From: a virus
Direction: 5' to 3' (one strand)
Virus record (IMG/VR): IMGVR_UViG_3300006919_000431
Location: 1 to 24,226 of that record
Length of the DNA: 24,226 nt
A model generated the notes under the pieces. It saw nothing but the letters and a program-made list of their open reading frames with translations, was not told where the DNA came from and searched no databases. Numbering within the stretch: the stretch's first letter is position 1; each line of letters opens with the position of its first letter. Positions 7,452 through 7,526 of the stretch are shown in pieces. The translations under genes and the position numbers were made by a program.

Positions 7452-7526
7452 TTATACCTGTTTGAAATACATCGTGACTTCAAAACCAAGTCTTAATTTT
7501 TGGTAAGTAGGCTTAGACCATTTCAT
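7452..7526 (-). CDS. pqqA-like: PqqA-like peptide (PQQ precursor peptide look-alike)
   Basis: A 24-residue frame, [10 protein letters not shown] followed by [14 protein letters not shown]. It matches the usual bacterial PqqA pattern (M-W-x-K-P-x(4)-LR-x-GFEVT-x-YF) almost residue for residue. PqqA is the ribosomal peptide whose conserved Glu and Tyr are cross-linked by the radical SAM enzyme PqqE, with PqqD as carrier, to build the redox cofactor PQQ. Both residues are present at the correct spacing (E16 and Y20 in E-V-T-M-Y). A GGAG site stands 6 bases before the ATG. Another in-frame ATG 12 bases upstream would add MEND but lacks a site. No pqqB-E gene is in the window. The gene follows the capsid terminator and precedes three micro-genes. 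Whether it feeds host PQQ synthesis, blocks it, or does something else is inference. Confidence 0.8.
   Translation of the reverse strand: [24 protein letters not shown]

Follow-up and report, generated by a model that had tools for sequence, protein, structure and literature searches.

PqqE cross-links the Glu/Tyr pair that stands at ExxxY spacing in the PqqA precursor peptide of Methylorubrum extorquens (PMC10906245). One methylotroph strain, studied for PQQ production, carries five copies of pqqA, three of which lie outside any pqq operon, and a cell extract of another species turned 70-80% of added PqqA into PQQ (PMC9851590). Among viruses, Coutinho 2020 (PMC7678222) described PqqA together with methanol dehydrogenase in VP_266, a methylotroph phage population of Lake Baikal, and a 2026 reservoir study includes pqqA, pqqE, and pqqD in its list of viral genes (PMC13188868). 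An earlier note on the DNA analyzed here had asked whether phage pqqA genes were already described, and these two reports answer that they are. No other relevant paper on viral pqqA was found in the literature searched, most subscription journals lying outside it.

The stretch of DNA analyzed, referred to here as the window, is the whole of the 24.2-kb IMG/VR virus contig IMGVR_UViG_3300006919_000431 (24,226 nucleotides), which is a fragment of a phage genome. Pfam and PHROG profiles recognized a terminase, an SU10-type portal, a major head protein, and an SU10-type adaptor on this record. The major capsid protein gene (positions 7581-8570, minus strand) matches PHROG 267, major head protein, with an E value of 2.4e-70, and its closest counterpart in a cultured phage is the capsid of pelagiphage HTVC115P (59% identity), followed by those of other pelagiphages and of the HMO-2011 group. 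The phage is a marine, HMO-2011-like podovirus. Further downstream in the structural operon lies a gene for an SU10-type head-tail adaptor or tail protein (6206-6976, minus strand; PF24175 and PHROG 10775). A 1395-residue protein with repeated TSTAAELNILDGV units is encoded at 403-4590; it has no Pfam match at E 0.01 and is probably a tail fibre.

Inspection of the minus strand revealed a 75-bp frame for 24 residues plus stop at 7452-7526, with an ATG at 7526 and a TAA ending at 7452, as the earlier note had proposed for a PqqA-like peptide. When the peptide was compared with the PqqA profiles, as that note had suggested, it passed both, scoring 36.7 bits against the equivalog model TIGR02107 (E 2.7e-9, cut-off 20) and 32.6 bits against PF08042 (E 7.7e-8, gathering cut-off 21.1). 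Since both curated cut-offs were exceeded, the frame is identified as encoding a genuine PqqA rather than a chance match. When PF08042 was run on all six frames of the 24-kb record, this frame was the single match, and no match came from 14 control genomes. The peptide is full-length, comprising the leader (WSKP), the core, and the Glu16/Tyr20 pair, which was indeed found at the ExxxY spacing that PqqE cross-links, with three residues between. In the peptide, Met is followed by an extra Lys, and the KQV tail is unusual. A DNA search with the 75-base gene against phage records gave chance matches only. The PHROGs profiles gave no match to three viral PqqAs, indicating that this collection does not detect such genes.

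A GGAG ribosome-binding site was found at 7536-7533, 6 bases 5' of the ATG. A second in-frame ATG is present upstream, at 7538, but it overlaps the GGAG, and 7526 is therefore the likelier start. The gene downstream of pqqA, which encodes 55 residues beginning MPQIGSEQNP (7281-7448, minus strand), starts 3 bases past the pqqA stop and is kept in relatives with or without pqqA. The earlier note had placed flanking genes 3 bases away, in a late operon behind the capsid gene. This spacing holds on the downstream side, whereas the gap between the capsid stop and pqqA is 54 bases; the position behind the capsid gene is likewise correct, but a terminator-like hairpin separates the two genes. The hairpin (7552-7573, minus strand) has a 7-bp G5/C5 stem and an 8-nucleotide loop and is followed by a T-rich run, TTTAATTT; its predicted folding energy is -20.3 kcal/mol (z -1.9). 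Of the 77 relatives with enough sequence, 73 have a G4+/C4+ stem behind the capsid stop. As a caveat, expression of pqqA behind such a hairpin would depend on read-through or on another promoter, and the hairpin could thus limit it.

The slot behind the capsid gene was compared across 80 contigs whose capsids are 88-99% identical to that of the window, 77 of which had enough sequence past the capsid stop. In most, the hairpin leads straight to the MPQIGSE gene, and pqqA is absent. A pqqA gene, which is a host-type gene among phage genes, occupied the same site in 5 of the 77 (L002, L003, L005, L019, and L022). The peptides of L002 and L003 are identical to that of the window and that of L005 differs by a change from Leu to Ile, while L019 and L022 encode a clearly different PqqA (48 of 66 nucleotides identical between the window gene and that of L019). 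A further member, L480, was obtained in a later IMG/VR scan and groups with the L005 type. The pqqA-positive relatives thus form three lineages with two kinds of PqqA in the same slot, and across these lineages the product of the gene preceding the capsid shows 59-100% identity to its window counterpart. Most relatives with capsids 88-92% identical lack pqqA, which indicates that the gene is not essential to this phage type. Cys-rich micropeptides (MCECKNCTCK, MCECKHCTCK, and MSCTNKSCECKHCTCK), preceded by ribosome-binding-like sites, were observed in the slot of L027, L065, and L067 and may possibly bind metal. In L011 and L013, a small frame, MEITY[I/V]YRGVKYTVKR, common to both contigs lies ∼110 bases past the capsid stop.

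To keep residue conservation independent of the search, Glu16 and Tyr20 were left free in two IMG/VR scans by using patterns that end before Glu16; at least 239 viral contigs were returned. The first two scans, in which Glu and Tyr are fixed, were left out of the conservation evidence. Among the matches listed, all 133 distinct complete peptides that match the blind patterns kept both Glu and Tyr, and in all 133 the length from Trp to stop is exactly 22 residues. Loci from the earlier scans are part of this pool, and none of the ∼120 newly added contigs departs in residues or length. The ratio pN/pS was 0.13-0.32 at the nine codons outside the scan pattern, indicative of purifying selection, and the Glu, Thr, Met, and Tyr codons of viral pqqA change almost only synonymously. 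Related phages accordingly keep frame-intact copies with Glu and Tyr, the conservation that the earlier note had looked for; neither failure to match the profiles nor Glu/Tyr loss nor broken frames in relatives was encountered.

When 50,697 phage records were searched by tblastn with the peptide, the matches were Methylophilales phages, two records of one bacterial-looking contig, and one environmental record. The Methylophilales phages were Melnitz (four isolates), Venkman, MEP401, MEP402, MEP301, and the LD28 phage P19250A, so that every cultured type of OM43 (marine) or LD28 (freshwater) methylophage found carries pqqA, in unrelated phage groups. A 2023 paper that contributes MEP401 and MEP402 gives Venkman, MEP301, and Melnitz as the complete set of earlier OM43 isolates; since all five were matched, the OM43 isolates named there all carry the gene. 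Complete reading of five types (Melnitz-2, Venkman, MEP402, P19250A, and MEP301) showed that each encodes a full PqqA (34-41 bits with the NCBIfam model against a cut-off of 20) behind an AAGGA-, GGAG-, or AAGGAA-like site. In these methylophages, pqqA adjoins recombination, replication, or baseplate genes, on either strand. The expectation that so short a gene is easily missed by gene callers was borne out: no gene is annotated at the pqqA site of Venkman, MEP402, P19250A, or MEP301, four of the five types read, and the gene called there in Melnitz-2 runs on the other strand. A search of three isolate papers on these methylophages found no mention of PqqA. The record "Acinetobacter phage MD-2021a" (CAKLQF020000010.1) was rejected as a phage; it is bacterial-looking, with pqqB, pqqC, PqqD, and a radical-SAM gene beside polyphosphate kinase.

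The two IMG/VR scans with Glu and Tyr fixed gave at least 240 matches; 236 of 240 were short PqqA frames, and among the other 4 at least 3 were PqqAs cut by a contig end. Taken together, the four scans gave well over 300 viral contigs with pqqA, although frequencies in IMG/VR are lower bounds and some of its contigs could be non-viral, a caveat that does not apply to the cultured phages or to the window lineage. Sorted by how similar their surrounding DNA is, the pqqA-positive viral contigs tested formed 24 groups. Solo pqqA was also observed on viral contigs of 340-364 kb (L213, L320, and L466), which suggests that jumbo phages carry the gene. Two short contigs from metagenome-assembled genomes, labelled Verrucomicrobiales (L329) and Euryarchaeota (L332), have pqqA and phage-like frames with no pqq enzyme recognized alongside and look like misbinned phage DNA.

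Viral DNA was also searched for the other genes of the pathway. As the earlier note had stated, pqqB, C, D, and E are not among the genes neighbouring pqqA in the window, itself a genome fragment. In 447 viral loci totalling 3.6 Mb, tblastn detected none of PqqB, C, D, and E, and 50 whole pqqA-positive viral records contained no PqqE match over the cut-off. Weak matches to the PqqE profile in viral contigs were discounted, being below cut-off and resembling those in all 14 control genomes; they are probably other radical-SAM proteins. One of these 50 records, a 72-kb contig with phage genes (L538; IMGVR_UViG_3300025120_009955), encodes at 7990-12784 a PQQ-dependent dehydrogenase of the methanol/ethanol family (TIGR03075, 608 bits), a CsgG-like curli export gene, and the alpha subunit of a formate dehydrogenase, with a solo pqqA ∼7 kb further on.

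Among the genomes scanned, the best bacterial matches to the window peptide were in marine Gammaproteobacteria, the nearest sources being UBA11143, SP3023, genomes labelled Halieaceae and Pseudohongiella, and HTCC2207. The window peptide resembles the PqqA of UBA11143 (L330) and SP3023 (L331), and that of L019 and L022 resembles the PqqA of gammaproteobacterium SAT1358 (L360), with which their pqqA shares 58-59 of 66 nucleotides. At the DNA level, identity between the window gene and the closest bacterial copies compared is only ∼75%. Bacterial PqqAs that have full operons also carry a KxV tail, which makes the tail of the window peptide a bacterial trait. In SP3023 the operon order is pqqA-B-D-E-C, PqqB, D, E, and C each being recognized by NCBIfam equivalog models. 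PQQ-dependent alcohol dehydrogenases are encoded in all nine near-relative genomes tested. Five of these genomes, of 2-3 Mb each (UBA11143, SP3023, two labelled Pseudohongiella, and SAT1358; L330, L331, L339, L357, and L360), have 30-49 matched stretches for such dehydrogenases, an unusually large number, with some genes giving two stretches. Gammaproteobacteria so rich in these enzymes should need much PQQ. From the similarity of the 24-residue peptide only, we infer that the host is likely a marine gammaproteobacterium of the Pseudohongiella/Halieaceae/SAR92-like type. SAR11 was considered as host since the nearest cultured capsid is that of pelagiphage HTVC115P (59%), but it is less likely given that, among the genomes scanned, the PqqA matches marine Gammaproteobacteria.

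PqqA is consumed one-for-one for each PQQ made, whereas PqqB-E are reusable catalysts, so that a 75-bp pqqA would relieve the likely bottleneck at minimal genome cost. A phage that shuts off host gene expression would exhaust PqqA first, and its own copy of the gene would sustain PQQ. A comparison can be made with cyanophages, which carry psbA, the gene of the fast-turnover D1 protein. Phage PqqA would be translated during infection, bound by host PqqD, and cross-linked by host PqqE, after which the peptide would be trimmed and converted to PQQ by a host protease, PqqB, and PqqC. PQQ-dependent alcohol dehydrogenases would then keep working as the host's own supply of pqqA falls. We infer that the peptide is translated and processed by the host in this way, with PQQ raised or maintained to the benefit of the phage. 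Of the three functions that the earlier note had offered, this feeding of the host pathway is the best fit, because the reactive residues are intact, the length is fixed, selection is purifying, the peptide matches a host type, and the gene is distributed among unrelated phages of PQQ-dependent methylotrophs. It is accordingly judged probable that the phage supplies the consumed PqqA substrate to the host PQQ pathway and so sustains PQQ during infection.

The peptide might instead act as a decoy: it would occupy PqqD and PqqE but give no PQQ, so that PQQ falls and host metabolism is redirected. The conserved leader would bind the same partners, and the extra Lys and unusual tail of the window copy could be read in this way, but the KxV tail recurs in bacterial PqqAs with full operons. 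A decoy should moreover often lose Glu16, Tyr20, or its length, and none of the complete viral PqqAs listed in the blind scans did so; the occurrence of pqqA and a viral PQQ-dehydrogenase gene on one contig also points to more PQQ rather than less. This reading is very unlikely. The most improbable of the alternatives is a virion or assembly micropeptide whose likeness to PqqA comes only from its position in the structural operon. Its place in that operon, flanked by the capsid gene and the next gene, and the unrelated micropeptides in the same slot of other relatives, would suit such a role. However, the peptide scores far above two curated PqqA cut-offs, other phages keep pqqA beside recombination, replication, or baseplate genes on either strand, most relatives with near-identical capsids do without it, and the slot holds two different host-like PqqAs. 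Neither a decoy nor a virion peptide would be expected to keep the Glu, Tyr, and length constraints in unrelated phages and at unrelated positions, which disfavours both.

That pqqA is a captured bacterial passenger of no benefit, lodged in a site tolerant of small inserts, would account for its presence in only 5 of 77 relatives and for the other small inserts in the slot. Against this, the gene has stayed intact across lineages that share only 59-81% identity in their scaffold-region proteins, it occurs in all the cultured OM43/LD28 methylophage types found, and pN/pS is well below 1; a mere passenger is quite unlikely. Supply of substrate to the host pathway is the preferred explanation. 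Whether it extends to a general phage strategy, in which phages of PQQ-dependent plankton repeatedly and independently supply only the consumable ribosomal precursor, is an evenly balanced question. The hosts would be methylotrophs and quinoprotein-rich marine Gammaproteobacteria, with pqqA matched to the PqqD and PqqE of the host, and solo pqqA would be a common, mostly unannotated metabolic gene of aquatic phages. PQQ-dependent dehydrogenases drive the oxidation of methanol and other alcohols in aquatic bacteria, and infected cells would keep or raise alcohol oxidation if phages routinely carried the precursor peptide. A tiny metabolic gene would then have been overlooked in isolate genomes and viromes since gene callers skip it. 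pqqA also offers a testable case of a virus that supplies the consumed substrate of a peptide-modifying pathway and not an enzyme.

With bacterial PqqA, the window peptide shares its length, the WxKP leader, the RLGFEVTMY core, and the Glu/Tyr spacing, but its gene is a solitary pqqA within a phage structural operon that has no pqqB-E. The stand-alone pqqA copies of methylotrophs (PMC9851590) are separate from the operon in the same way, but are chromosomal and not viral. Closer in kind is VP_266, which likewise carries a solo PqqA as an auxiliary metabolic gene, proposed in that case to support methanol dehydrogenase; VP_266 is T4-like and assigned to Methylophilaceae, whereas the window derives from an HMO-2011-like podovirus, probably of another host. 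The OM43/LD28 methylophages (Melnitz, Venkman, MEP301, MEP401/402, and P19250A) resemble the window in having a solo PqqA with a ribosome-binding site and no Pqq enzymes annotated nearby, and differ from it in peptide type (ATEMRFGFEVTMYVMNK), phage group, and genome position. Set beside these systems, the podovirus context, the two PqqA types in one slot, the breadth of the distribution, the omission from isolate genomes, and the conservation test appear to be new relative to the literature searched.
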